DNA of 48,238 nucleotides from an uncultured Erysipelotrichaceae bacterium. Lineage in GTDB: Bacteria; Bacillota_I; Bacilli_A; RF39; UBA660. Shown here piece by piece: positions 1-41,496 of the stretch (position 1 is the first letter of the stretch; each line of letters opens with the position of its first letter). The notes under the pieces are model-generated. The model was not told the origin of the DNA. It saw nothing but the letters and a program-made list of their open reading frames with translations, and ran no database searches. The stretch is from positions 1 to 48,238 of the forward strand of contig CADAMI010000003.1 of NCBI GenBank assembly GCA_902788975.1, written 5' to 3'. The translations under genes and the position numbers were made by a program.

Positions 1-837
1 TTTTTACTATCTCTTCATTTATTTAATAGTAAAGACGATAAAAAATATCTAAAAACAATTTATTCAATAACTAACAATATTGAAAATAATTATAAAGTAT
101 ATAAAATAAAAAAAAGAAATGGCAAACTAAGAACTATTCATGAACCTAATAAATTATTAAAACATATTCAAAGACAAATCTTAAATAATATTTTAAATAA
201 TAAAACTATTTCAAAGTATGCTAAAGCATATCACCCTGGTATCTCATTAAAAGAGAATGCTATACCTCATATTAATAAAGATTTAATATTAAAGTTAGAT
301 ATCAAAGATTTCTTTGAAAATATTAATTTTATTGATGTCTATAATGCTTGTTTTTCTATTGAATACTTTCCAAAATCAGTGGGTATGATTTTAACATATC
401 TTTGTACTTACCAGGATCATTTAATACAAGGAGCTCCAACCTCAGCTTATATTTCTAATTTAGTAATGAAAGATTTTGATGATGTAATAGGTGAGTGGTG
501 TGATAATAATAACATTTCGTATACTAGATATTCTGACGATATGACATTCTCTGGTAATTTTAATCCCAGTGAAATAATTACTAAAGTAAGAAAAATGCTA
601 TCTAAATTAGGCTTAGAATTAAACAATAAAAAAACACATATTGTAAAGAAATCAGCTAGTCAGAATATAACTGGATTAGTAGTTAATGAAAAAGTTCAAA
701 CAAATAATAAATATCGTAAAAAAATAAGACAAGAAGTATACTATATTAAGAAGTATGGATTATCTTCTCATTTAAAGAAATTAAATATTCAAGATAAAGA
801 TAAATATTTACATAGTTTATATCCTACAAATAGATAA
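1..837 (+). CDS. Retron-type reverse transcriptase, 5' truncated by the window edge
   Basis: The frame is open from base 1, so the start lies upstream. Motifs appear in the right order for a reverse transcriptase: the retron-type NAxxH motif as NAIPH (256-270), LKLDIKDFF with the first catalytic Asp (298-300), QGAPTSAYISN (427-459), the active site YSDD (529-540), LELNNKKTH, and ITG in place of the retron VTG motif (667-675). NAxxH and VTG-type motifs mark retron RTs, which make msDNA from a noncoding RNA usually encoded just upstream; that RNA would lie outside the window. The frame ends early with HSLYPTNR, while the next frame (818-895) encodes YILQIDKNNQEF and more, which resembles the usual RT tail. 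The thumb end therefore looks frameshifted. No effector gene follows on this strand. Confidence 0.85.
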   Translation, partial: FLLSLHLFNSKDDKKYLKTIYSITNNIENNYKVYKIKKRNGKLRTIHEPNKLLKHIQRQILNNILNNKTISKYAKAYHPGISLKENAIPHINKDLILKLDIKDFFENINFIDVYNACFSIEYFPKSVGMILTYLCTYQDHLIQGAPTSAYISNLVMKDFDDVIGEWCDNNNISYTRYSDDMTFSGNFNPSEIITKVRKMLSKLGLELNNKKTHIVKKSASQNITGLVVNEKVQTNNKYRKKIRQEVYYIKKYGLSSHLKKLNIQDKDKYLHSLYPTNR

Positions 838-7075: not shown

Positions 7076-7267
7076 ATGACACAAAAAGAATTAGCTTATC
7101 TTGAAGATGCTATTGGTCATGAAAAAACTATTATTGCCATCTGTCAAGAATCAATAAAATACTTACAAGATGAATCTTTAATTACATTTATTGAAAATGA
7201 AATACCTAAACATGAACAAACTAAAAGAGATCTAATGCATATGTTGGAGGTAAAAGCCAATGAATGA
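7076..7267 (+). CDS. Small helical protein paired with a CotF-like protein
   Basis: A 63-residue, all-helical protein (one Cys) that starts after TTGGAGG. Its rhythm (LAYLEDAIGHEKTIIAICQE, then KHEQTKRDL) is that of a two-helix, ferritin-like half, like small CotF-related spore coat or rubrerythrin-like proteins. It overlaps the next gene by 8 bases, so the two are translationally coupled. The coat assignment leans on the neighbour. Confidence 0.65.
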   Translation: MTQKELAYLEDAIGHEKTIIAICQESIKYLQDESLITFIENEIPKHEQTKRDLMHMLEVKANE

Positions 7268-7508
7268 TAAATTAATAATGGAAAATTATCTATTAGTTTT
7301 AAAAAGTACCATTGAAGTATATATACATGGTACTCTAGAAAGTTCAAATAAAGATATTCGTGAGTTACTTCATAAAGGCCTAAATAGCACTTTAACTCAT
7401 CAAGCCAACACTTATGACTTAATGGCTGAATATGGTTTTTATCAAGTTAATAATATTATGCCACAAACTATTAACCAAACTTTAACTAAAATAAATAGTC
7501 AAAACTAA
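7260..7508 (+). CDS. Spore coat protein F-like (Coat F domain)
   Basis: An 82-residue protein matching the Coat_F pattern: MNDKLIMENYLLVLKSTIEV, then YIHGTLESSNKDIRELL, a Gln in the second helix pair and a final DLMAEYGFYQV (usual form M-x-x-x-G-W/F-Y). Such proteins are small helical bundles found in spore coats of Bacilli and Clostridia, though some occur in non-spore-formers. The ATG at 7260 follows TTGGAGG and overlaps the stop of the previous gene. With CotE at 29.2 kb this hints at sporulation. Confidence 0.78.
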   Translation: MNDKLIMENYLLVLKSTIEVYIHGTLESSNKDIRELLHKGLNSTLTHQANTYDLMAEYGFYQVNNIMPQTINQTLTKINSQN

Positions 7509-9189: not shown

Positions 9190-10702
9190 CTATTGTTACA
9201 AAATATGTTAAATTCTTTAATTTCTTAAATAGACAGAAATAATCATCTTCATATAGAATTTCATAATTACTATCATTTTTTAATATTTCATAAAATTGAT
9301 TATCTTCTTTATATATTAATACGTGGGTAATTTTATAAAATTCAAATTTTTCTTGATAATTTCTACCTATAAAATGAAAATCATCTAAGATATCATAATC
9401 TAATCCACTAAATTGTTTCGTATATAAATCAGCTCTTGAATCGATGAATACCGGAATATTATTTAACATTAAATAACTACCAAAATTATATTCATTAAAT
9501 ATCCGCATACTATCAATATCAATATTTTCTTTAATATATTTAACCGCCTCTATTGGATATACCTCTTTATCGATATAATCTTTACTATTTTGAAAGTTAA
9601 ATAGAAGACTACTACCAATAACTGCTATCATAAAACTAATAATAATTACTACCTTTTTATTAAAGAAATTCAAAACTGGTTCCATAGAAAGATCATATTT
9701 ATCTAAAAACATGGTAAATATTCTGACAAAACAAATCGTTCCGATTAAGGCAAGGAGAGCAATATGTCTAACGGAAATAATTGACATTAAAACTAATCCG
9801 CATTCCATAAATAAATCTCTTAATTTTGCCTTTGAGAAGAAAGCAAAAAAGATAGTTTCAATCGCAATAATAAGGGTAAATGGACTATTAGCCCAACTAA
9901 TCATTTGATGCTCTAGAATATATTTTTGACTATTGCCCATAAATGTTTTAATAAAATAAGTATATGGTGTTAATCCAATCGGAGTAATTAAACCAGTTAA
10001 TAAACTTAATAACATAGTAACAAATAAATATTTAATATTATTATTTTCTTCAAGAATCATTCTCGATTTTAAATACTTAATAAATATATTTTCTTTTTTT
10101 AATTTAATCTTTTTACATATCTTAGTAATTATATATTCAGCTAAATATGGTAAATACACAATGAAGTAGAATGGCCATACCGCTACATGAACATTGCATA
10201 TAATTAAGGATACTAATAAGAGGCCAATTAAATTTCTCTTATTACCATTTTTTAAGAAACTTTCAATAAAATATATTTCAAGAGCAAATAAGATAAAACT
10301 AACTAACTGAGCCCTTGCTGTTGCAAAACCACTTATTGCTAACATACATAAAAATACTCCAAGAGCGGACATTATATAATTATTAGTAATCTTTAAATTA
10401 ATTTTAAAAACAATCATTAATAAAATATATAATAATATCATTGATGATATATATATACCTGTATAACCCAAGTTATGATAAATTAAATAAATAAATACAT
10501 CATATAACCAATGTGGATATGTATAAGCTAGTCCCGTATGAAATGAAAAATGATCCATCATATCTATACCATTATTTATAATTAATTCACCAATCTTAAT
10601 CGTATAAAAGGTATCATTCTGTAATGTTTTTCTAACAACTGCTATGACTAAAATAGCTATCCATACCATAAACATATATTTAAATTTTTTCTTCTTATCC
10701 AT
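9182..10702 (-). CDS. Polytopic membrane protein, GT-C-like
   Basis: About 506 residues and 10-12 membrane segments. The opening (NDTFYTIKIGELIINNGIDM, then DHFSFHTGLAYTYPHWLYD) has the acidic first outside loop and the layout of membrane glycosyltransferases of the GT-C type, and the soluble C-terminal part contains a YPIEAVKYIKEN segment seen in related hypothetical proteins. No catalytic residue can be proved by eye. ATG 10702 has GGTGA upstream; ATG 10714 has no ribosome site. It converges with the glycosyltransferase gene, so both may serve surface-glycan assembly, but that is inference. Confidence 0.7.
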   Translation of the reverse strand: MDKKKKFKYMFMVWIAILVIAVVRKTLQNDTFYTIKIGELIINNGIDMMDHFSFHTGLAYTYPHWLYDVFIYLIYHNLGYTGIYISSMILLYILLMIVFKINLKITNNYIMSALGVFLCMLAISGFATARAQLVSFILFALEIYFIESFLKNGNKRNLIGLLLVSLIICNVHVAVWPFYFIVYLPYLAEYIITKICKKIKLKKENIFIKYLKSRMILEENNNIKYLFVTMLLSLLTGLITPIGLTPYTYFIKTFMGNSQKYILEHQMISWANSPFTLIIAIETIFFAFFSKAKLRDLFMECGLVLMSIISVRHIALLALIGTICFVRIFTMFLDKYDLSMEPVLNFFNKKVVIIISFMIAVIGSSLLFNFQNSKDYIDKEVYPIEAVKYIKENIDIDSMRIFNEYNFGSYLMLNNIPVFIDSRADLYTKQFSGLDYDILDDFHFIGRNYQEKFEFYKITHVLIYKEDNQFYEILKNDSNYEILYEDDYFCLFKKLKNLTYFVTIEN

Positions 10703-10868: not shown

Positions 10869-11354
10869 ATGTATAAAATAAATGATTATATAATATATAA
10901 AAGAGAAGTATGTAAAATAAATGATATCTTACCTAAATTCTTTAAAGATAATGATTATTATTTATTAAGTCCCTTATCTGATGATACACTAACAATAAAA
11001 GTACCCGTTAATAATAAAGAAATACGTAGTCTAATTACTAAAAAAGATATTGATAAAATTATAAATAAAATACCTGATATCGAACCAGTTAATAGTGATA
11101 CGAAAACGTTAGAAAATACTTATAAAGAATTATTAGCATCTGGTACTCATGAAGATTTGATTAAAATAATTAAGACAACATACTTAAGAAATAAAGAAAG
11201 AATTGATAATAATAAAAAGACTACTGATAAAGATAATTATTATTTTAATTTAGCTGAAAAATATCTTTATCAAGAGTTTCAAATTGTCTTAAATTTATCT
11301 TATGAAGAAGCTAAAAATTATGTTATTAATAAAGTAGCAAAATTATCTAAATGA
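10869..11354 (+). CDS. CarD/CdnL-family transcription regulator
   Basis: A 161-residue protein. The N-terminus (YKINDYIIYKREVCKINDIL, then DYYLLSPLSDDTLTIKVPV) matches the CarD/TRCF RNA-polymerase-interacting domain, a small beta barrel that binds the RNA polymerase beta subunit and affects promoter open complexes. The C-terminal half is helical and ends in NYVINKVAK, as in CarD proteins. It sits behind the structured leader at 10809 and a strong AAGGAGGAG ribosome site. It overlaps the converging flippase gene by 12 bases. Confidence 0.82.
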   Translation: MYKINDYIIYKREVCKINDILPKFFKDNDYYLLSPLSDDTLTIKVPVNNKEIRSLITKKDIDKIINKIPDIEPVNSDTKTLENTYKELLASGTHEDLIKIIKTTYLRNKERIDNNKKTTDKDNYYFNLAEKYLYQEFQIVLNLSYEEAKNYVINKVAKLSK

Positions 11355-12623
11355 TTTTTTAACATAATAAATATGGTGGATTGTTACATAAAATATATTA
11401 ATTATACTGGCAATAATAAACCCCCACATACCCATAAATATAGGTAGAATAATTAATAAAATATTTTTAATTATTGCTCCTTTTAATGTCCCTAACATAG
11501 CTGTTTTAGCCATCTCAGCCGCTTGCATATAAGAAGTAAGTGGTCCTTGAATATAATGCATTAAAAATAAGGGAGCCACTATTCTGATATAACCAACACC
11601 TTGAGTAGTGTTATAGATAAATTTAAGCAGGATATCTGGAATAGTCATAAAAAACATGGTAAAAAATATTCCTACGAATAATGAAATAGTTATCGCTTGG
11701 CGTAACTTTTTTTTCGTATAAGCTATTTTTCCTTTAGCAAGTCCATTCGACACGACTGGAAGAAGAGAAGTAGATATGGCCATAGTAAAGAATGATGGAA
11801 TCAATAGTAATGGGAAAACATATCCAGTAATTATTCCATATTCTGAAACAATATAACTATTATCATATCCACATCTTAACAATATAAAGGTAAGAATTAC
11901 TGGTTCTAAGAAATATGATATAGAACCAATAAATCTACTTCCCGTAGCACTAAGAGATATATTTAAAACATCTTTAAATATTTCTTTATCGAGTTTTAAA
12001 TCATTTAAATTTATCTTTTTACTAGGTACAAATAATATTAAACATATAATCGATGAAAATTCACTAAATATATTGATAAGTACTACCCATAAAACCGCTA
12101 TTTTCATGCCATATACCATTAATTTAGGTATCATAAAAATAATAAATAATAACCTAACTATCTGTTCAATAACATTAGATACAACATATGGAGTCATTCT
12201 TTCATTACCATAAAAATATCCTTTTAATATTGAAGACATACATATAAAAGGTAAGGTAAAACTAATTCCCATAATTGGTAAATATGTATCTGGATTATTA
12301 AGTAAATGATTACTAATAAATGGTGCTAATAATATTAACAATATCATTAAAATAATATTATAAAGGATACTTACTGGTATTAGTGATAAGACCACTTTCT
12401 TTCCTCTTTTACCTTCCGCTACTACTTTACTAATCGATGTTGGTAATGACATAGTACATAAAGTAATAAATAAATTAAATGTAGGCATTATTAACATATA
12501 TAAGCCAATACCATTACCACCAATACTTCTTGTTAAAAATATTTTAATCACCATGGCCATTAATTTCGTAATAGCTCCACCAATAATTAAAATCATTGTC
12601 GATTTAATAAATTTACTTTTCAT
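11343..12623 (-). CDS. SpoVB/MurJ-like polysaccharide flippase
   Basis: About 426 residues and 12-14 membrane segments of the MATE-like MVF/flippase superfamily. The N-terminus (ITKLMAMVIKIFLTRSIGGN, then GIGLYMLIMPTFNLF and SLPTSISKVVAEGKRGK) is the SpoVB-type signature. SpoVB-like proteins move lipid-linked wall or cortex precursors across the membrane, and MurJ moves lipid II. Which substrate applies here cannot be said. I take ATG 12623 as the start; a TTG at 12647 could add eight residues, and neither has a clear ribosome site. Its promoter region is shared with the divergent gene at 12711. Confidence 0.8.
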   Translation of the reverse strand: MKSKFIKSTMILIIGGAITKLMAMVIKIFLTRSIGGNGIGLYMLIMPTFNLFITLCTMSLPTSISKVVAEGKRGKKVVLSLIPVSILYNIILMILLILLAPFISNHLLNNPDTYLPIMGISFTLPFICMSSILKGYFYGNERMTPYVVSNVIEQIVRLLFIIFMIPKLMVYGMKIAVLWVVLINIFSEFSSIICLILFVPSKKINLNDLKLDKEIFKDVLNISLSATGSRFIGSISYFLEPVILTFILLRCGYDNSYIVSEYGIITGYVFPLLLIPSFFTMAISTSLLPVVSNGLAKGKIAYTKKKLRQAITISLFVGIFFTMFFMTIPDILLKFIYNTTQGVGYIRIVAPLFLMHYIQGPLTSYMQAAEMAKTAMLGTLKGAIIKNILLIILPIFMGMWGFIIASIINIFYVTIHHIYYVKKSFR

Positions 12624-17107: not shown

Positions 17108-17138
17108 CGTGTATATAATTTATGAGGAGGTAAGAAAG

Positions 17139-19220
17139 ATGTCAAAAAAAATAATAGTCATCCAAGATGGAATTAAAGAGTGTGGCAGTGCCTGTCTATT
17201 ATCGATTATTAGATATTATGGTGGTAATGTTCCTATGCAAGAATTATTAAGACTAACTAATACAACCAAAGATGGAACCACTTTTTATGACATAAAAGAA
17301 GCAGCTTATGAAATAGGCCTTTCAGTAAAAGGATACAAAGTAGAAAATGCTAGCAAACTCTACGAACTAACAAAGCCATTTATTAGTCAAGTAATCATTA
17401 ATAATTATCTTCATTTTATAGTTGTCTATAAAATAGATAATGATAATGTTACTATTATGGATCCAGCTAAAGGAATGGTCAAAATGTCCCTAACTGAATA
17501 CCTAAATATATATACTGGTAATATTCTTCTATTTGAGCCCTTCAAAGAATTACCTAAGTATAATGAATCCAATTATTTAAAAAGTGTTATTAAATCAGTT
17601 ATAAATAGTAATAAATATTTAATTATAAATTTAATAATTTTAACTATAATTACTACTATCTTTACTTGTCTATATAGTTGTTATTTAAAAATAATTATCG
17701 ATAACTATCTATCTCAAAGTACTTTTAAAATATTAATTATATCAATTATCTTTATAATTATTTATTTAATAAAAGTAATTAGCGAATACTTCCGTAATAA
17801 TCTTTTAATATATCTAAATAAAAAGATAGATTTAACGATCATTACTTCCATCATAAGAAAAATAATCTTACTTCCTTATAGTTATTATAAGAATAAAACA
17901 ACTGGTGAAATGATTTCTCGTATTAATGATCTTTTATATCTAAAAAATATTATTACTAAAGTAATAACTACAATCTTTTTAGATTTTTTCTTATCATTAA
18001 CAATTATTATTATTTTATTTAAGATAAATACATCTATGACATTTATGTTATTTATAATAACTATTATCTATTATTTAATATTTATTTCATACAAGAAAAT
18101 AATCGAAAAATATACTGAAAAAATTCAGATTAGTAGTGCTTTAACTAACTCACTTTTAACTGAATCTATCAGTAGTTATGAAACAATTAAAGGATTATCT
18201 CTTGAAGAATCCTTCATTAAAAAAATAAATAAAAAATACGAAACAACAATTAGCAATAATTTATTATTAAATAAAAATATTAATCTAGAAAATCTTTTAA
18301 AAAGCTTATTCGAGGGAATTATTATAATTTTTATTCTATATCGAGGATTTACATCAGTTATAAATAATACTCTTTCTTTAGGAAGTCTAATTACTTATAA
18401 TACCTTAATATTATATTTTTTAACCCCCATTAAAAACATTTTAGATTTTTATAAAGAATTTTATTATATTAAAAATAGTTTAATCAGAGTTAATAATTTA
18501 ATAAATTATAAATATGAAAGTTTAGACACAAAACAAAATCTTATTATTCATGGTAGTATCCACATAACTAATCTTAATTATAGTTATAATAAGCATTATT
18601 CTGTTTTAAACAATCTTACGCTAGATATCGAAGAAGGGAGTAGAGTATTAATTTTAGGTTCTAGTGGTAGTGGTAAATCAACTATATTAAAGTTATTATA
18701 TCGATACTACGACATTAAGAATAATAGTATATTTATTAATGATAAAGATCTATTAAATTATAACATAGCTGATCTTAGAAATAATATAACTTATGTTTCC
18801 CAGAATGAATATCTATATACCGACACTATAAAAAACAATATTATTTTAGATAGAAATATTCCAGAAAGCAAGTTTATTATGATCTGTAAATTACTCTATA
18901 TAGATGATTTTGTTAAGGACAAGCCCTTATCATATAATTTTTTAGTCGAAGAAAATGGTGCTAATTTATCAGGAGGTGAACGACAACGAATTATCTTAGC
19001 CCGATCATTTTTAAAAGAAAGTAATTACCTTTTTATTGATGAAGGATTAAATGAAATTGATATTAATTTAGAAAGAAAAATACTTAAAAATATTTTTCTC
19101 TATTATCGTAATAAAACCATAATTATTATTTCTCACCGGACCGATAATATGGATTTATTTGATAATGTTATCTATTTAGAGAGAGGATTTATTACTAAAA
19201 ATATTAAAAGGAGGAATTAA
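17139..19220 (+). CDS. C39-peptidase ABC exporter for double-glycine peptides
   Basis: A 693-residue exporter that would cut double-glycine leaders and pump the product out. The C39 peptidase comes first: oxyanion Gln9, catalytic Cys15 in IKECGSAC, His92 in YLHFIVVY and Asp108 in IMDPAKG. Six membrane helices follow (about 160-420). The ATPase has Walker A GSSGSGKS near residue 507, signature LSGGERQRI near 609, Walker B LFIDEG and H-loop IIISHRTD. The start follows GAGGAGG. Its stop overlaps the ATG of the first peptide gene, so exporter and cargo are cotranslated. ComA/LanT-type families share this build; no lanthionine-forming enzyme is nearby. Confidence 0.93.
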   Translation: MSKKIIVIQDGIKECGSACLLSIIRYYGGNVPMQELLRLTNTTKDGTTFYDIKEAAYEIGLSVKGYKVENASKLYELTKPFISQVIINNYLHFIVVYKIDNDNVTIMDPAKGMVKMSLTEYLNIYTGNILLFEPFKELPKYNESNYLKSVIKSVINSNKYLIINLIILTIITTIFTCLYSCYLKIIIDNYLSQSTFKILIISIIFIIIYLIKVISEYFRNNLLIYLNKKIDLTIITSIIRKIILLPYSYYKNKTTGEMISRINDLLYLKNIITKVITTIFLDFFLSLTIIIILFKINTSMTFMLFIITIIYYLIFISYKKIIEKYTEKIQISSALTNSLLTESISSYETIKGLSLEESFIKKINKKYETTISNNLLLNKNINLENLLKSLFEGIIIIFILYRGFTSVINNTLSLGSLITYNTLILYFLTPIKNILDFYKEFYYIKNSLIRVNNLINYKYESLDTKQNLIIHGSIHITNLNYSYNKHYSVLNNLTLDIEEGSRVLILGSSGSGKSTILKLLYRYYDIKNNSIFINDKDLLNYNIADLRNNITYVSQNEYLYTDTIKNNIILDRNIPESKFIMICKLLYIDDFVKDKPLSYNFLVEENGANLSGGERQRIILARSFLKESNYLFIDEGLNEIDINLERKILKNIFLYYRNKTIIIISHRTDNMDLFDNVIYLERGFITKNIKRRN

Positions 19221-19354
19221 TGGAATTAACAAATCAAGAAATGTTAAAAATTAACGGTGGCTCTTGGTATGTCATCGCAGGAATTGGGGCTGCCTTAACC
19301 TATATAATAGGTATTCTTAGTGGCTTTACTAATCCAAGTCGTTGCAATAATTAG
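19220..19354 (+). CDS. Double-glycine leader peptide A (candidate class II bacteriocin)
   Basis: A 44-residue gene too short for ordinary ORF calling. The ATG overlaps the stop of the exporter gene (TAATG) and follows AAAGGAGG. The leader MELTNQEMLKINGG is a textbook double-glycine leader; cutting after Gly14 leaves a 30-residue peptide beginning SWYVIAGIGAALTY. The mature part is strongly hydrophobic, contains GILSG (a GxxxG motif) and ends PSRCNN with a single Cys. This fits one half of a class IIb two-peptide bacteriocin, but a signalling peptide is possible. Confidence 0.85.
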   Translation: MELTNQEMLKINGGSWYVIAGIGAALTYIIGILSGFTNPSRCNN

Positions 19355-19366
19355 AAAGGAGGATAT

Positions 19367-19540
19367 ATGCAAGTAAGAGAACTTAATGAAAAAGAAATGT
19401 TAAAAATAAATGGCGGAGCCTTGACGTCTTCATTTATAAATGCCATTAACAGTGTTATAAACACCTTATTTGAATTAGGTAAAGAAACCGGCAGCACCTT
19501 AAGACGATTAATACAAGGTAATTATTGTCCTATGAACTAA
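19367..19540 (+). CDS. Double-glycine leader peptide B (candidate partner peptide)
   Basis: A 57-residue gene starting 12 bases after peptide A, with its own AAAGGAGG. The leader ends in EKEMLKINGG; cutting after Gly17 leaves 40 residues starting ALTSSFINAINS. The mature part is an amphipathic helix, contains GKETG (GxxxG) followed by Arg-Arg, and ends NYCPMN with a single Cys. The leaders of A and B share EMLKINGG while the mature parts differ, as expected for two cargoes of one exporter. Confidence 0.85.
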   Translation: MQVRELNEKEMLKINGGALTSSFINAINSVINTLFELGKETGSTLRRLIQGNYCPMN

Positions 19541-19543
19541 AAA

Positions 19544-19575
19544 ATAGAAGTGTAGATTAATATCTACACTTCTAT
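19544..19575 (+). terminator. Perfect 14-bp hairpin after the peptide genes
   Basis: ATAGAAGTGTAGAT pairs perfectly with ATCTACACTTCTAT across a TAAT loop. No T run follows, so it may protect or process the mRNA, or only partly end it, between the peptide genes and the lipoprotein gene. Confidence 0.6.
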
Positions 19576-19617
19576 GAATATGTATATTTATTAACTATAA
19601 GTTAAAAAGGAGGTCAA

Positions 19618-20232
19618 ATGAAAAAAATAATTATAACTAGTTTTCTTATTATTTGTTTAACTGCCTGTCATAAAACACCTAAAGAACAAGTGTTTGAAAC
19701 AAAAATAGAAAACAATAATGCGGTTATTAAAACTGATAAAGATTTGCCAAAAGAAGAATTATCGGAAAATAATGAAGAAGATAATTCAATAAATAAAGAA
19801 ATAAAAGAAGAAAACCACCCTGAAAAAGAAGAAATAACAATCGATAAACCTAAACCAATTATTGAACTACCAACTATTCCTATTATTGAAGAACAAATTG
19901 ATTCAGTAGATGAAGAAAGTCTTGACTATTCGATTCATAAAGGAAGAATTGATTGTCAGGATGAAGCATCGTGTATGGATAAATCAATTCCCATCCAATT
20001 TAAGTATAAACAATCAATTTCTAACGTTTTTTATCTTGAAGTAATCTCTAAAAAAGATAATATTTTAGGTTATTTTATCGAATATAACTTCAAAGAACAT
20101 AAATATCAAAATAATGAAGAATGTCTTTTAATTGGCAAAGATATTAAAGATGCCTTACCAGATAGAGTAGTTAGTTATGAATGCTCAGCTGATGGTATCT
20201 TAAAAATAAATACTGATTATGGAAAGGAGTAA
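19618..20232 (+). CDS. Lipoprotein between the peptide genes and the adhesin
   Basis: A 204-residue protein with a lipoprotein signal (IICLTAC, lipid-carrying Cys17), so it is anchored to the outside of the membrane. Residues ~20-95 are a very acidic, Lys/Glu/Pro spacer. The C-terminal ~100 residues hold paired Cys (DCQDEASC and ECLLIG with YECSAD) and may form a small disulfide-bonded beta domain. It starts after AAAGGAGG. It could be an immunity protein for the peptides or a partner of the adhesin; the sequence does not decide. Confidence 0.75.
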   Translation: MKKIIITSFLIICLTACHKTPKEQVFETKIENNNAVIKTDKDLPKEELSENNEEDNSINKEIKEENHPEKEEITIDKPKPIIELPTIPIIEEQIDSVDEESLDYSIHKGRIDCQDEASCMDKSIPIQFKYKQSISNVFYLEVISKKDNILGYFIEYNFKEHKYQNNEECLLIGKDIKDALPDRVVSYECSADGILKINTDYGKE

Positions 20233-20233
20233 T

Positions 20234-22354
20234 ATGTTAAAGAAAATAATAATAATTATAACAACTATTTTATTAATGATAAATTGTGTATATGCAGATA
20301 TTAATGATAGCAAACTAGTAAAAAATAGATATGATAATATTTATGCTGTCTATGATGCTCCGGATAGAGTTCATTTATATTATGCTCAGAAATATACCCT
20401 AAATGATATAACAGCTTACTGTATTGAACCAGGTCTTGGTATTGATACTGATACCTATTCTTCGACAACCGATTGGTCACTTACTAACTTAGATAGCGAT
20501 ACGATTAATGCTATTCGTTTGATTGCTTATTATGGCTATGATTATCCTGAACATAATACAATGAAATATTATCTAGCCACTCAAGAATTAATATGGCGAA
20601 AAATTGCTAATCGTGACGTTTACTGGATTGAAGGAACCGATAAAGATGGTCCAAGAATTAACATTGATAATGAAAAAAACACCATTATTGAATTGGTTAA
20701 TGAACATACCAAAGTTCCATCTTTTGATAACAAAACAATCAATTTATCATTAGGTGAAAATAAAATTATCGAAGACACTAACTATGTCTTAAATAATTAT
20801 GAAATATATTCATCTGATATAAGTGATGTTAAAATTGATGATAATAAACTTGTTATAAATATAACTAAACCAAAGAAAAATGCTGAAGTAAGATTAATAA
20901 AAAAGAATTATACCACTAAAGTAGCCTTAATCTATTATAGTGGTAATAATCAAAAACTAATTCGTTCCGGAATTCTAGATCCTGTTATTGCTTCATCTAA
21001 AGTAAATATTACTATGCGTTCAAAAATAAAAGTAATAAAGATTGATGAAGTATCTAAAAATACGGTTAAAAGAAAAGGCATAAAATTTCAAATAAAAAAT
21101 ATGGATACTAACGAATATATCTGTAATAATTATGAATGTACTTATGAAACAGAATCTGATGGTACTTTTACAACTGATTACTTAGAACAAGGAAATTATC
21201 AATTAGAAGAAGTAAAGCAAGCTGAACTATATGGGTATTACTGGAATAAACAACCATTAAGTTTTTCAATTAACGAAAACTCAGATATAAAATATGAAAA
21301 TAATGAACCAATAATTGAATTAAAATTTGCTAATCGCCAATTAACAGGTGGTTTTAGTTTTAAGAAAGTAGGGGAAAATCCAATCTTTAACGATGGTAAA
21401 ATAATCTATGAAGATGTTCTTCTAGATGGAGTAGTCTTTAAATTATATGCCAACGATGATATCTATTCAGCTGATGGTACGCTAATATACCACAATAAAG
21501 AAATAATTAAAGAAATAACAACTGAAAATGGTACTTATTCACAGTATGGAATGTATTTAGGTAAATATTGTTTGGAAGAAATATCATCTGTTAAGAATCA
21601 TATTGTAAATTCAAACCCTCGTTGCTTTGAACTAAATTATAAAGACAGTTTTCATGACAATTATGTTACTTGGTTTCAATTAAATAACTATCTTCCCAAA
21701 GGTAATTTTGAATTAACTAAATTAAATATCTCGACTCAAGGCCCAATTAAAGATGTCAAATTTGCTATTTATACCGAAGATAATAAATTGTTCTATTCTG
21801 GCATTACCGATGAAGAAGGCCATATTTATTTACCAAATATTCCAGTAGGTAAATATTATTACAAAGAATATGCAGCTCCGAAAGGTTATGCCATAAATAC
21901 AGAAAAAATGTTTTTTGAAATAAAAGAAAATGGTGAAACCGTAAAATCAACCGTTACTAATAAATATATAACTGGTACTTTTATATTTACCAAAACTGAT
22001 TATTCAACTAATGCCCCCCTTTCTAATACCCTAATCGAAATATATAATGAAGATAATGAACTCTTATATTCAGAACGAACCAATGAAGAAGGAAAAATAG
22101 TAATCAACAATTTACCATATGGTAAATATTACTATAAAGAGATTGAAGCCCCAGAGGGTTATATGCTTAATCCAGAAACTATATCTTTTGAAATCAAAGA
22201 AGATAATGAAATTGTAAATGCTAATATGACTAATGAAAAAATACCTGTTCCCATTACCGGCTTAAATGAAAACTATCTTGTCTATGGAGTATGTGCATTT
22301 TCGATTATTCTAGGAGCTATATCAATAATTTATGATCATCAAAAGAAAAAATAA
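20234..22354 (+). CDS. Sortase-anchored adhesin with thioester and Cna-B domains
   Basis: A 706-residue surface protein. After a signal peptide (1-21) comes a thioester domain: Cys63 in AYCIEPG and Gln117 in LATQELIW are the pair that form the internal Cys-Gln thioester used to bind host amines. Cna-B/SpaA-type beta domains follow (from about 275, 375, 490 and 580), with the GKYYYKE(Y/I)xAPxGY repeat twice. The end has VPITG, a hydrophobic stretch and KKK, a class of LPxTG-like sorting signal. Start ATG 20234 after GGAAAGGAG. It overlaps the sortase gene by 23 bases. Confidence 0.9.
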   Translation: MLKKIIIIITTILLMINCVYADINDSKLVKNRYDNIYAVYDAPDRVHLYYAQKYTLNDITAYCIEPGLGIDTDTYSSTTDWSLTNLDSDTINAIRLIAYYGYDYPEHNTMKYYLATQELIWRKIANRDVYWIEGTDKDGPRINIDNEKNTIIELVNEHTKVPSFDNKTINLSLGENKIIEDTNYVLNNYEIYSSDISDVKIDDNKLVINITKPKKNAEVRLIKKNYTTKVALIYYSGNNQKLIRSGILDPVIASSKVNITMRSKIKVIKIDEVSKNTVKRKGIKFQIKNMDTNEYICNNYECTYETESDGTFTTDYLEQGNYQLEEVKQAELYGYYWNKQPLSFSINENSDIKYENNEPIIELKFANRQLTGGFSFKKVGENPIFNDGKIIYEDVLLDGVVFKLYANDDIYSADGTLIYHNKEIIKEITTENGTYSQYGMYLGKYCLEEISSVKNHIVNSNPRCFELNYKDSFHDNYVTWFQLNNYLPKGNFELTKLNISTQGPIKDVKFAIYTEDNKLFYSGITDEEGHIYLPNIPVGKYYYKEYAAPKGYAINTEKMFFEIKENGETVKSTVTNKYITGTFIFTKTDYSTNAPLSNTLIEIYNEDNELLYSERTNEEGKIVINNLPYGKYYYKEIEAPEGYMLNPETISFEIKEDNEIVNANMTNEKIPVPITGLNENYLVYGVCAFSIILGAISIIYDHQKKK

Positions 22355-29202: not shown

Positions 29203-29236
29203 ATACTTGCATATTTTATATTGAGGAGTGATGTAT

Positions 29237-29770
29237 GTGGCATATAGAGAAATAGTTACTAAAGCTGTCATTGGCAAAGGTAAGAAAAAATATACTAATT
29301 CATATGAAATTAATGTCGATGAAAAGCCATCAACTGTTTTAGGTTGTTGGATAATTAATCATAATTTTGAAGCACATGAATCGGGAGATAAAATATTAAT
29401 TAATGGTTCATTTGATGCAAATGTTTGGTATTCTTATGATAATGATACAAAGACAACCGTTACAACTAAAAGAATAACCTATAATGAAGAAGAAAAACTA
29501 AATGTTGATGCCAAAGATGTTGTTAACAAAGATATTATTATCAGAAGTTTAAAACAACCTACATGTATTAGTGCTAAAGAAGATGGAAATACTATTAAAT
29601 TAGATATTGAAAAAGAACTTGGTATCGAAATAGTAGGCGATACAAAGGTAAAAATATCATCTGTCGATGATGACGATGATACATGGGATGATTTAGATAG
29701 TACAAAAAATATTGATGAAGAAATAGAAAAAGTAAATCCAAATTATATCGACAAAGAGATCATGAAATAA
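29237..29770 (+). CDS. cotE: Outer spore coat morphogenetic protein CotE
   Basis: In Bacillus CotE organises the outer coat around the forespore. The match is strong: AYREIVTKAVIGKGKKK, then KPSTVLGCWIINHNFEA, GSFDANVWYSYDNDTKTTV and TTKRITYNEEEKL, followed by LKQPTCIS and an EIVGDTKVKIS segment, then an acidic tail (DDDDD region) as in CotE. It has about 177 residues, normal for the family. I chose the GTG at 29237 because GGAG lies eight bases before it and the product then begins like Bacillus CotE; the ATG at 29231 and GTG at 29228 sit too close to that site. Confidence 0.9.
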   Translation: MAYREIVTKAVIGKGKKKYTNSYEINVDEKPSTVLGCWIINHNFEAHESGDKILINGSFDANVWYSYDNDTKTTVTTKRITYNEEEKLNVDAKDVVNKDIIIRSLKQPTCISAKEDGNTIKLDIEKELGIEIVGDTKVKISSVDDDDDTWDDLDSTKNIDEEIEKVNPNYIDKEIMK

Positions 29771-34518: not shown

Positions 34519-36672
34519 ATGAAAAGCAATAAGGTTAATACAAATAAACTTAAAATAAGTAAATTTGTGTACGTTATTGTCTTTTTTTTGTTTATCTTAT
34601 TTGGTTTATCTTTGGGATATAGATGTTTAGTAGATTATGAGGCTACTAAAGGGGTAAGTATTAGTGAATTTATTCAAAATAGAAATATCGAAGAAGATGT
34701 TTTAATGCCAGAGAGAGGTACTATTTATGATATAAATGGTAATGCTTTAGCTCAAGATGTAGCTAGTTATACGATAATTGCATATTTAAATAAAGACAGA
34801 GGACAAGATAATGCTGGTAATTATCGTTATGTCATTGATAAAGAAAAAACAGCTAGCGAATTATCTAAAAAGATAGATACTTCATATGAAAGAATACTAG
34901 AATTATTAAATAAAGACGCTTATCAAGTAGAACTAGGTACTGGCGGTAAAAATTTAAGTCAATTACAAATGGAAGACATAAAAGCACTAAACTTACCAGG
35001 AATAGATTTTATTAAGAGTACGAAACGATATTATCCAAATGGCGACTTTGCTTCTTATTTACTTGGTTATACCAAAAATAAAGAGTTAGATGATGGCAAT
35101 ACTTATATGGTTGGAGAATTAGGTATCGAAGGGTACTACAACAAAGAACTTACCGGTAAAAGCGGTTATATTAAATATGAAAAAGATGGTCGAGGTAATA
35201 TTATTGCTAATTCTAATGAATATAGAGAAGACGCTATCGATGGTTCTGATATTTATCTAACGATCGATAGTAATATTCAATTGTTTATTGAGAATGAAGT
35301 CAAAAAAAGTCAAAGTAATAGCAATGCTGAATGGACTGTTATGGGAGTAATGAATGCCAAAACAGGAGCTATTTTGGGGTATTCTTCGACACCTTCATTT
35401 GATCCTAATATTAGAAACTTAACTAGTTATATGGATCCTTTAGTAAGCTATGCTTATGAACCAGGTAGTACCATGAAAACATTTAGTTATATGTGCGCAA
35501 TTAACAGTGGTAAATACAATGGTAGTGATACTTTTATGTCAGGATCTAAGACGTATGTTTCAGCAAGAGATGAAAATGACACAGTAACGATTAAAGACTG
35601 GAATAATGGACAAGGCTGGGGAAGAATTAGTTACGATTTTGGATATGCGATGTCATCGAATATTGGAGTAGCCAATTTACTTGAAAATGTTATTACCAAA
35701 AATGAACTTAGTAATTGTTATGAAAAATTTGGCTTTGGTAAAAAGACAGGAATTACTTTAAATGGCGAAGTTAGTGGTGATATTAAATTTACTTATGATG
35801 TTGAAGCAGCAACAGCTGGTTATGGACAGGGAATAGTTGTTAGTCCTATTCAAATGCTTCAAGGGCATACAATAATTGCCAACAATGGAACATTATTAAA
35901 ACCATATATTGTTTCTAAAATAGTTGATAGTAGTGGTAAAACAATTCTTGAAAATAAACGCGAAGAAATAGGAACGGTTGTAAATAAAGAAACGATTAAT
36001 AAAATTAAAGAACTAATGCGTAGTGTTATTTCAGAGGATAGTTCTACTGGTACTGGATCAGCTTATAAAATGGATGGCTATGATTTAATTGGTAAAACTG
36101 GGACTGCATCTATTTTTGAAAAAGGAAGATATTTAACTGGGGACGGTAATTATATTTATTCATTTGCTGGATTATATCCAGGAGATGATCCTGAAATAAT
36201 AATCTATATGGCTGTAAAAAAACCAAAAGATGGTCAAAATTATATTGCCTCATCAGTTAAAGATGTTATTGTTAATACCTCTAAATATTTAAGTATCGAA
36301 GAAAAAACAAAGGAAAATAAAAACATTGTTTTAGATGATTATTCAAATAAAATTGTTACTGAAGTTAAAAGCAAATTGGAACATAATAAAATAAAAGTAA
36401 TTACTTTGGGTACAGGAAATAAAGTAATTAATCAATACCCAAATAAAGGTATTAAAGTATATGAAAATGGCTTAGTAGTATTATTAACTAATAACTATAA
36501 TAAGACAATGATTGATTTTAATGGAATGAGTTATAAAGAAGTTAAAGAAATACTTAAGTTAATGGATGTTGAATACGAATTATCTGGTTATGGCTATGCT
36601 TATCAACAAAATATAGATAATGGTAATGTCATAGATAAAAAGGTAATTATAGAGTTTAAGGGATTATATTGA
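34519..36672 (+). CDS. Class B penicillin-binding protein (PBP2/FtsI) with PASTA
   Basis: Cross-links septal peptidoglycan outside the membrane. A 717-residue protein: membrane helix (about 15-35), pedestal domain with PERGTIYDINGNALA, then the transpeptidase with active Ser in GSTMKT, the SSN motif and GKTGTAS. The last ~110 residues contain one full PASTA domain and part of another, as in the FtsI/SpoVD group. AGGTGA precedes ATG 34519. No mraY or murF follows: the cluster stops here. Confidence 0.92.
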   Translation: MKSNKVNTNKLKISKFVYVIVFFLFILFGLSLGYRCLVDYEATKGVSISEFIQNRNIEEDVLMPERGTIYDINGNALAQDVASYTIIAYLNKDRGQDNAGNYRYVIDKEKTASELSKKIDTSYERILELLNKDAYQVELGTGGKNLSQLQMEDIKALNLPGIDFIKSTKRYYPNGDFASYLLGYTKNKELDDGNTYMVGELGIEGYYNKELTGKSGYIKYEKDGRGNIIANSNEYREDAIDGSDIYLTIDSNIQLFIENEVKKSQSNSNAEWTVMGVMNAKTGAILGYSSTPSFDPNIRNLTSYMDPLVSYAYEPGSTMKTFSYMCAINSGKYNGSDTFMSGSKTYVSARDENDTVTIKDWNNGQGWGRISYDFGYAMSSNIGVANLLENVITKNELSNCYEKFGFGKKTGITLNGEVSGDIKFTYDVEAATAGYGQGIVVSPIQMLQGHTIIANNGTLLKPYIVSKIVDSSGKTILENKREEIGTVVNKETINKIKELMRSVISEDSSTGTGSAYKMDGYDLIGKTGTASIFEKGRYLTGDGNYIYSFAGLYPGDDPEIIIYMAVKKPKDGQNYIASSVKDVIVNTSKYLSIEEKTKENKNIVLDDYSNKIVTEVKSKLEHNKIKVITLGTGNKVINQYPNKGIKVYENGLVVLLTNNYNKTMIDFNGMSYKEVKEILKLMDVEYELSGYGYAYQQNIDNGNVIDKKVIIEFKGLY

Positions 36673-39278: not shown

Positions 39279-40608
39279 AAAATTAGATGAATTTAATCAA
39301 AAATTAAAAAAAAGTAAAATTGCTATTATTGGTGTTGGTGTCAGTAATTTACCCCTTCTTGATTATTTATATCAATTAAATTGTGATGTAACTATTTTTA
39401 GTGACAAAAAAATAGATATTGATATTAGTAAATATAATTATCCAATATATGAAGATGGTCTTAGTAAATTAGTAAACTTTGATATTATTTTTAGATCTCC
39501 TGGATGTTTACCTACAAGAGAAGAAATAGTTAAAGAAAAAGAAAGAGGAGCCATAGTCACTACCGAAGTAGAACAAGTAATTAAATTAACTCCTGCTAAA
39601 GTAATTGGCATAACAGGATCCGATGGAAAAACTACAACAACTACTTTGATTAATTTAGTGCTAGAAGCAAACAACTATAAAACATTTTTAGGCGGTAATA
39701 TAGGAACACCATTATTTACAAAAATAAAAGATATGACTAAAGATGACATTGTAGTCCTTGAATTATCCTCATTTCAACTAATGGAGATGACTGTTAGTCC
39801 TGATATATCAGTTATTACCAATATTACCCCAAATCATTTAGATAAACATAAAGATATGCAAGAATATATTGATAGTAAATGTAACATCTATAAATATGAT
39901 GGCAGTCTTCTAGTATTAAATGATGACAACGAAATAACTAAGAATTTAACTAGTGATAGAGAAATTAGATATTTTAGTAGAAATCATAAAACCAATAGTT
40001 TTTATACATTAAATGGCTTAATATATCACAATGATTTAGTTATTCTTGATAGTAAAGATTTACATATTAGAGGAGTACATAATTTTGAAAATATCTGTGC
40101 TTGTTTAGCAGCTACTTATGATTTAATAGATATGGATAAAGCAATACAAGCTATTAAAGAATTTAGTGGAGTTGAACATAGATTAGAGTTTGTAAGAGAA
40201 ATAAATGGAATTAAATGGTATAATGATTCGGTATCATCTAGTCCAACGAGAACAATTGCCGGATTAAACTCATACGATGAAGATATTGTCTTAATAGCAG
40301 GAGGATATGATAAAAATTTAGATTATACCCCCATAGCTAAACCAATACTTAAGAAAGTAACAAAATTAATCTTATTTGGAGCTACGAAAGACAAAATATA
40401 TAATGCCGTTATCAAAGAAAAAACAAATGAAAATATCAAAATATATGTTCTTAATACTTTAGAAGAAGTTGTTAATAAAGCTAAAGAAGTAGCTGTTAAA
40501 GGAGAAATAGTCCTATTTAGCCCTGCGTCAGCATCTTTTGATATGTTTAAGAATTTTGCTGATAGAGGAATACAATTTAAAGAATTAGTAAAAAAATTAG
40601 AAGATTAA
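39271..40608 (+). CDS. murD: UDP-N-acetylmuramoyl-L-alanine--D-glutamate ligase
   Basis: Adds D-glutamate to UDP-MurNAc-L-Ala with ATP. A 445-residue enzyme: N-terminal domain (AIIGVGVSNLPLLDY), IFRSPGCLP, ATP loop GITGSDGKTTTTT, VLELSSFQLM, ITNITPNHLDKHKD, VEHRLEFV and the C-terminal SVSSSPTRTIAGL. ATG 39271 follows AAGTGGTGA and overlaps the preceding gene by eight bases. Its terminator palindrome includes the stop codon. Confidence 0.95.
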   Translation: MNKKLDEFNQKLKKSKIAIIGVGVSNLPLLDYLYQLNCDVTIFSDKKIDIDISKYNYPIYEDGLSKLVNFDIIFRSPGCLPTREEIVKEKERGAIVTTEVEQVIKLTPAKVIGITGSDGKTTTTTLINLVLEANNYKTFLGGNIGTPLFTKIKDMTKDDIVVLELSSFQLMEMTVSPDISVITNITPNHLDKHKDMQEYIDSKCNIYKYDGSLLVLNDDNEITKNLTSDREIRYFSRNHKTNSFYTLNGLIYHNDLVILDSKDLHIRGVHNFENICACLAATYDLIDMDKAIQAIKEFSGVEHRLEFVREINGIKWYNDSVSSSPTRTIAGLNSYDEDIVLIAGGYDKNLDYTPIAKPILKKVTKLILFGATKDKIYNAVIKEKTNENIKIYVLNTLEEVVNKAKEVAVKGEIVLFSPASASFDMFKNFADRGIQFKELVKKLED

Positions 40609-41271: not shown

Positions 41272-41496
41272 TTAATTGTAATAATAATATTGATTTTGAG
41301 TATATGGGACTGGATATGGAGGATATGGCATTGGTACTGGTCCATAATATGGTCTAGGATAGAATGAAGGAGCTAATAAACCACCAGTAATGCCACCTAG
41401 AATAAATGGGCCTAAGAAACCGCCACCAATAAATCTATCACCATTATTAGGCCTCCTGATAGGTCTCATTGGTCTATTAAAATTATTTGGATTCAT
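41272..41496 (-). CDS. Small Gly/Pro/Tyr-rich protein, spore-coat-like
   Basis: A 74-residue, low-complexity protein: MNPNNFNRPMRPIRRPNN, a glycine-rich GGGFLGPFILGGITGGLLAP, then a Pro/Tyr tail ending NQYYYYN. Small proteins of this composition are frequent among spore coat and surface proteins of Bacilli and Clostridia, but the composition alone is weak evidence. ATG 41496 has AAAGG about 11 bases upstream; longer frames lack a ribosome site. Confidence 0.65.
   Translation of the reverse strand: MNPNNFNRPMRPIRRPNNGDRFIGGGFLGPFILGGITGGLLAPSFYPRPYYGPVPMPYPPYPVPYTQNQYYYYN

Follow-up and report, generated by a model that had tools for sequence, protein, structure and literature searches.

cotE in a genome-reduced gut lineage, and a putative family of skin-type elements that splits its anchor gene spoIVA

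CotE is a morphogen of the outer spore coat. In the relevant passages of Galperin et al. (2012, PMC3533761), it occurs in all bacillar spore formers, is absent from clostridia and interacts with SpoIVA, whose gene is a sigma-E target (PMC5025042). The presence of cotE in the stretch of DNA analysed here (the window, 48,238 nt of contig CADAMI010000003.1 from an uncultured bacterium with a compact genome) therefore raises the question of what such a gene does there. The original prediction had left two options, unsuspected spore formation or the reuse of coat genes for another purpose.

That cotE is intact is borne out: in a Pfam search, its 177-residue product gave a single full-length match to PF10628 (E 7.2e-50; 169.4 bits, where the cut-off is 25), in which residues 3-172 align to profile positions 2-176 of 177. 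A structure search returned no solved CotE structure at E 0.1. The GTG start codon at 29237 suits a GAGGAG at 29223-29228, while an alternative in-frame GTG at 29228 would yield a protein of 180 residues. Relaxed selection, which had been named as a ground for abandoning the prediction, is not seen, with dN/dS values of 0.19-0.31 against five named relatives. The gene is preceded by a putative -10 box, assigned to its class by what we take to be the sigma-E/K consensus. The features of the window considered here are:

7076..7267, plus strand: short helical-looking ORF overlapping the Coat_F gene, its partner by position only (translation; no Pfam match)
7260..7508, plus strand: Coat_F domain protein, 82 aa (PF07875, E 4e-14)
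11343..12623, minus strand: SpoVB-like lipid flippase (TIGR02900, spore_V_B, E 9e-87, under the curated cut-off)
29210..29218, plus strand: CATATTTTA, putative mother-cell (sigma-E/K-type) -10 box of cotE (sequence; box upstream in 111/111 loci)
29237..29770, plus strand: cotE, outer spore coat morphogen, 177 aa (PF10628; orthologues in 261/288 genomes; dN/dS 0.19-0.31)
41272..41496, minus strand: small Gly/Pro/Tyr-rich ORF, putative coat protein (translation; no Pfam match)

Three of the other features had been put forward as companions of cotE. The supposed Coat_F pair at 7076-7508 stands only in its second member, since the first matches no Pfam family. The flippase was correctly recognized, spore_V_B being its best NCBIfam match; we call it SpoVB-like because its score of 291.8 bits lies under the curated cut-off of 372.3. 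The Gly/Pro/Tyr-rich ORF likewise exists, with a frame open to 41571. The window further contains the C-terminal piece of a retron-like reverse transcriptase (379-837, plus strand; NF038233, E 1.8e-33, profile positions 127-260 of 289), a C39-peptidase ABC exporter with a downstream protein that carries SpaA repeats and a thioester domain (17109-22354, plus strand), and a penicillin-binding protein with a PASTA domain (34519-36672, plus strand), which best matches PBP2X and then SpoVD, both under cut-off. According to Field et al. (2024, PMC10868615), spoVD is one of the genes that are reduced in, or missing from, RF39.

The source genome is compact, as had been supposed (1.23 Mb in 72 contigs, 70.6% complete), and it holds the core genes for which a genome-wide search had been proposed. 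Spo0A scores over the TIGR02875 cut-off, and SpoIIGA-SigE, SigF, SigG, SigH and both halves of spoIVA are present as well, the four sigma factors carrying best-match names below the NCBIfam equivalog cut-offs. SigF is accompanied by a STAS gene and followed by an HTH gene, a YabP-family gene and YqfD; in the related genome G070, SpoVAC-, SpoVAD- and SpoVAE-type genes lie downstream of sigF. Among the five sigma hits of the 70.6%-complete source genome, there is no SigK or second SigE/K-type factor. A lack of core sporulation genes, the other ground named against the prediction, is thus not what this genome presents.

The relatives of the source genome are MAGs from the gut that bear the names ‘Bacilli’ or ‘Tenericutes’, Candidatus Onthousia among them, and the order is very probably RF39 of the GTDB, a genome-reduced group (Nayfach et al., 2019, PMC6784871). 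Its gene profile fits that of Field et al. (2024, PMC10868615), who predicted spore formation for RF39, with spoIIAB and spoIIE reduced or absent and spoIIGA present; the lack of the former two and the presence of the latter are common to both analyses. The prediction of sporulation for this order is thus the known part of our results, and it was not unsuspected. Unlike the present work, the accessible portion of that paper contains no occurrence of CotE and reports no split spoIVA. The passage of ‘Mollicutes RF39’ to chicks via treated eggs, alongside spore formers (Richards-Rios et al., 2020, PMC7028958), fits environmental spores.

SpoIIAB and SpoIIE are held to be universal among spore formers (Galperin et al., 2012, PMC3533761, in the passages cited). 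In our profile search, each was over the cut-off in 0 of 97 genomes of the order, which departs from the endospore programme with its SpoIIAB/SpoIIE control of SigF and counts against the reading proposed below. Nor does spoIIAB lie beside sigF at any of 21 sigF loci (L035:1158-2139 of the source genome and L147-L166), which were taken by coordinate, the SigF search ranking SigG loci first. At 16 of the 21, a STAS gene is found just upstream of sigF. The nearest match of nine aligned STAS proteins from such loci is SpoIIAA (1th8, E 1e-16), and just two of the nine have Ser or Thr at what we take to be the phospho-serine position. With SpoIIAB and SpoIIE missing and this position not kept, sigma-F must have other control.

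Within its order, cotE is not odd but an ordinary, nearly order-wide gene: PF10628 matches occur in 261 of 288 sampled genomes, which mostly measure 0.8-1.6 Mb, and 260 of them are over the cut-off. Its losses coincide with those of sporulation genes. Among the 288 genomes, 12 lack both CotE and Spo0A, 15 CotE only, 13 Spo0A only and 248 neither (p 8.5e-8), where Spo0A counts as absent at a best E above 1e-34, a threshold of our own, and where the double losses represent nine genera, same-genus genomes not being independent. In the set of 97, the corresponding counts are 10, 3, 2 and 82 for CotE and SigF/SigG (p 1.4e-9; absence above 1e-39, likewise our threshold) and 9, 4, 5 and 79 for CotE and SpoIVA (p 8.1e-7); all of these counts include noise from incomplete MAGs, and the loss and carrier lists behind the statistics were compiled by hand. 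Furthermore, all 111 cotE loci have a CATA...T box at 12-95 nt upstream of the gene (shuffles: mean 15.9, maximum 22), as do 31 of 33 spoIVA loci (shuffles: mean 5.2). An ATA at -35 distance accompanies it at 27 of the 33 spoIVA loci but at only 13 of the 111 cotE loci, which leaves the promoter type of cotE less certain.

Could CotE nevertheless have been recruited to a role unrelated to sporulation? The link is imperfect, as 3 of the 13 CotE-less genomes in the set of 97 keep SigG and two CotE-bearing ones are without SigF/SigG hits. Against this stand the co-loss, the mother-cell-type -10 box at every cotE locus and the adjacency of cotE and sigG at 4 of 30 sigG loci; the co-loss and promoter evidence leads us to reject such a takeover, which has scarcely any chance of being correct. 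Because of the co-loss, the CATAnnnT box and the sporulation set of the source genome, we conclude that cotE serves sporulation. Of the two options offered originally, spore formation is therefore supported, whereas the reuse of coat genes is not, given the co-loss, the -10 box, the dN/dS values and the core genes.

SpoIVA, the anchor of CotE, is over the cut-off in 83 of the 97 genomes, and in seven of these 83, the source genome included, spoIVA is cut at the codon for Trp121 (GPRxVxTPW), inside the ATPase domain; an eighth genome, G087, has only a C-terminal half, at a contig end. In the source genome, the N-half lies on contig C4 (attL match 10005-10035) and the C-half on C6 (attR match 39742-39784), while spoIVA of the genus-mate G037 is uninterrupted. 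On the attL side, the N-half ends in CCNTGG and is followed by 14-15 nt and GTGATACC; on the attR side, GGTATCAC is followed by 15 nt, TGGT and the C-half. A scan of 385 genomes located attL in 22 (19 genera) and attR likewise in 22 (17 genera), giving 25 genomes and 20 of 117 genera with either arm in total, and the reversed control patterns gave 0 matches. All but one of the 23 attL matches directly adjoin a SpoIVA N-half, which in one case consists of residues 95-123 only; the remaining match (L229) is near a contig end, without SpoIVA. Two types of core exist within the genera g41 and g46. In the named-genome set, SpoIVA was matched in 49 of 50 genomes (out of 80) and is split at the Trp121 site in three; G390 of this set is apparently the same genome as G268, and the two are to be counted once. 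In G027, G416 and G414, SpoIVA is in pieces or shortened elsewhere than at Trp121; the pieces of G027 lie at contig ends and are therefore perhaps mere assembly breaks.

A single contig holds the whole element in G301 (3328 bp), G356 (5196 bp), G268 (11102 bp) and G188 (13801 bp), as well as in G391, where the right arm deviates from the att pattern. In-silico excision yields a spoIVA frame that is open from the first Met in G356 (491 aa), G268 (492 aa) and G188 (491 aa); in G301, it yields a frame of 515 codons whose start codon is not ATG. In each of the 11 elements read, a gene for a large serine recombinase (LSR) lies beside attR, with a small ORF directly upstream. The LSR of G082 has the Pfam domains Resolvase, Recombinase and zinc ribbon. 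The small ORF encodes 41-73 residues, with 16 invariant columns across ten sequences; its structure model is poor, and no resemblance to known directionality factors was found. Upstream of its start, at a distance of 27-33 nt, all ten distinct sequences have a CATAnn[AT]T box (shuffles: mean 0.95, maximum 5). In the source genome, the element is interrupted by a contig gap: LSR residues 1-443, 94% identical to the LSR of G082, are truncated by the start of C4, and residues 466-528 are found at the end of C6, before attR. We put its length at about 10.35 kb, the sum of about 10,026 bp, 66 bp that are unassembled and judged from the alignment, and 262 bp.

The remaining cargo varies and includes a Mob_Pre relaxase in the source genome, Fic proteins (L252 and L255), AAA_14/DUF4143 proteins and a protein of 2317 residues (L254, from G268). 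As regards mobility, G082 and G054 belong to different genera. Their sequences are identical over 4929 of 4929 nt as far as the TGG core, beyond which 15 of 60 nt differ, and their spoIVA C-halves have 70% DNA identity; similarly, the LSRs of G301 and G356 are 97% alike and their SpoIVA C-halves 61%. LSR relatives of at least 66% identity occur in seven of the 97 genomes, six of them with a split spoIVA, and all others reach at most 45%. The seventh, G016, has a partial LSR on a contig end (L265, G016:C24) that is 92% identical to a spoIVA-element LSR; spoIVA is whole in this genome, and the partial LSR perhaps represents another target or a free form. We considered a phage identity and rejected it: LSR relatives above 60% identity are missing from phage and plasmid records, those in viral contigs reach at most 44%, and the elements carry mobilization, Fic or large-protein genes. 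The LSR is of the same kind as the serine recombinases TndX (34.8% identity) and XisF (model E 3.4e-32, below cut-off), but differs from them in its target site. As a separate observation, seven genomes (G015, G021, G082, G159, G169, G209 and G263) have two CotE matches each, as if cotE were in two pieces, with a best E of merely 1e-28 to 1e-32 in six of them; in stretches from three of the seven, CotE was not found near other LSR genes.

How is this arrangement to be read? One might suspect an artefact of assembly or binning, as the halves lie on different contigs in the source genome and several others, and as G062 breaks exactly at the Trp121 site, with no element sequence seen. However, five elements are complete on one contig, which rules out a plain assembly artefact, the arms recur in 20 genera and the reversed patterns are absent; we attach practically no weight to this explanation. 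The halves could also work as two separately made polypeptides, in which case excision would be unneeded, and the frame of the C-half does often extend upstream into the element without a stop, taking in potential start codons (L253, L255). Yet the break falls within a single domain, the site carries a full recombinase system and, in the carrier G035, a stop immediately precedes the core, so that we regard two functional polypeptides as very improbable.

The element may, furthermore, simply knock out spoIVA, its carriers being coat-defective or asporogenous and their cotE a relic awaiting loss. In keeping with this, excision is here a deduction, one of the N-halves (G315) and one of the C-halves (G186) are broken, and sporulation genes have been lost elsewhere in the order. 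However, 21 of 22 N-halves have a frame that is open from a start codon through to Trp121, 21 of 22 C-halves have one that runs to the normal end, and close pairs are under strong constraint (dN/dS of 0.006 and 0.02 in the two closest N-half pairs and 0.03-0.08 in the five closest C-half pairs), although these low values may partly date from before the insertion. The carriers also retain their sporulation genes: among the 288 genomes, 20 of 20 keep CotE and Spo0A, and CotE is missing from none of the eight split genomes (a set that includes G087, with its lone C-half, and G062, where the contigs stop at this site), as against 9 of the 14 without spoIVA (p 0.0055). Together with the conserved -10 box before the recombinase operon, the open halves and the retention of CotE favour a skin-type element over a plain knockout, which we deem unlikely. 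Consistent with a skin-type element are the in-frame split of a sporulation gene, the recombinase of its own and the att sites, and the spoIVA elements look like a new family of this type.

From CotE, the sporulation set, the split and its att sites, the recombinase, the restored frames and the conserved -10 boxes, all read directly from sequence, we infer mother-cell expression, excision during sporulation, a role for the small protein and spore formation itself. In the sequence of events that we propose, the mother cell would express cotE from a promoter of the CATAnnnT type, and CotE would dock on SpoIVA at the forespore surface, where the outer coat begins. In the source genome, and in scattered members of about one sixth of the sampled genera, this docking would hinge on a DNA rearrangement at the Trp121 site of spoIVA. 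A two-gene operon, encoding the candidate recombination directionality factor of 41-73 residues and then the LSR, would be turned on in the mother cell from a CATAnnAT promoter; the LSR would recombine attL and attR at their short TGG core, spoIVA would be rejoined in frame, and the SpoIVA then made would allow CotE to assemble.

We hold it to be likely that CotE is the ordinary coat morphogen of a stripped-down, vertically kept endospore programme and that its docking needs the spoIVA rearrangement in carriers. With somewhat more reserve, we also think it probable that a family of small mobile elements, spread through this order of uncultured gut bacteria with genomes of 1 Mb, has captured spoIVA, such that coat assembly from SpoIVA to CotE would need a rearrangement at the sigma-E stage of the mother cell, earlier than those of sigK and gerE, in a programme that runs sigma-F without SpoIIAB and SpoIIE. 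Such an element would move between genera, and its host would tolerate it since excision is required in the doomed mother cell alone.

The targets named in the literature consulted for elements that intervene in sporulation genes are sigK (skin), spsM (SPbeta), spoVFB (vfbin), gerE (gin), yabG (yin) and spoVR. With skin and its counterparts, the spoIVA element shares the in-frame split of a sporulation gene, an LSR, a short shared core and a small ORF beside the LSR gene, and like it, the gin element is not a phage (PMC5595907, in the part consulted). It differs in its target, in its smaller forms (3.3 kb), in its very wide spread within one uncultured order and in that its excision is deduced. 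CotE itself resembles that of Bacillus (PF10628) in its full-length family match, its mother-cell-type -10 box and its co-occurrence with SpoIVA; unlike there, the genome measures about 1.2 Mb and the anchor gene is interrupted. The new part of our results is this split of spoIVA, the gene for the anchor of CotE, of which we found no report in the open-access literature searched.

Under genome reduction, cotE, which goes unmentioned in the accessible portion of the RF39 paper (PMC10868615), thus persists almost throughout the order and is lost together with sporulation genes. Moreover, spoIVA extends the list of sporulation genes known to be split by such elements. Its own elements come in natural variants of 3.3 to 13.8 kb and offer order-specific integrases with a defined att site. 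They also turn the general prediction for RF39 into a sharp one that can be tested by PCR, namely that rejoined spoIVA DNA and the element circle would be present only in sporulating carrier cells. Metagenomes or ethanol-treated stool could thereby reveal sporulation in bacteria that have never been grown.
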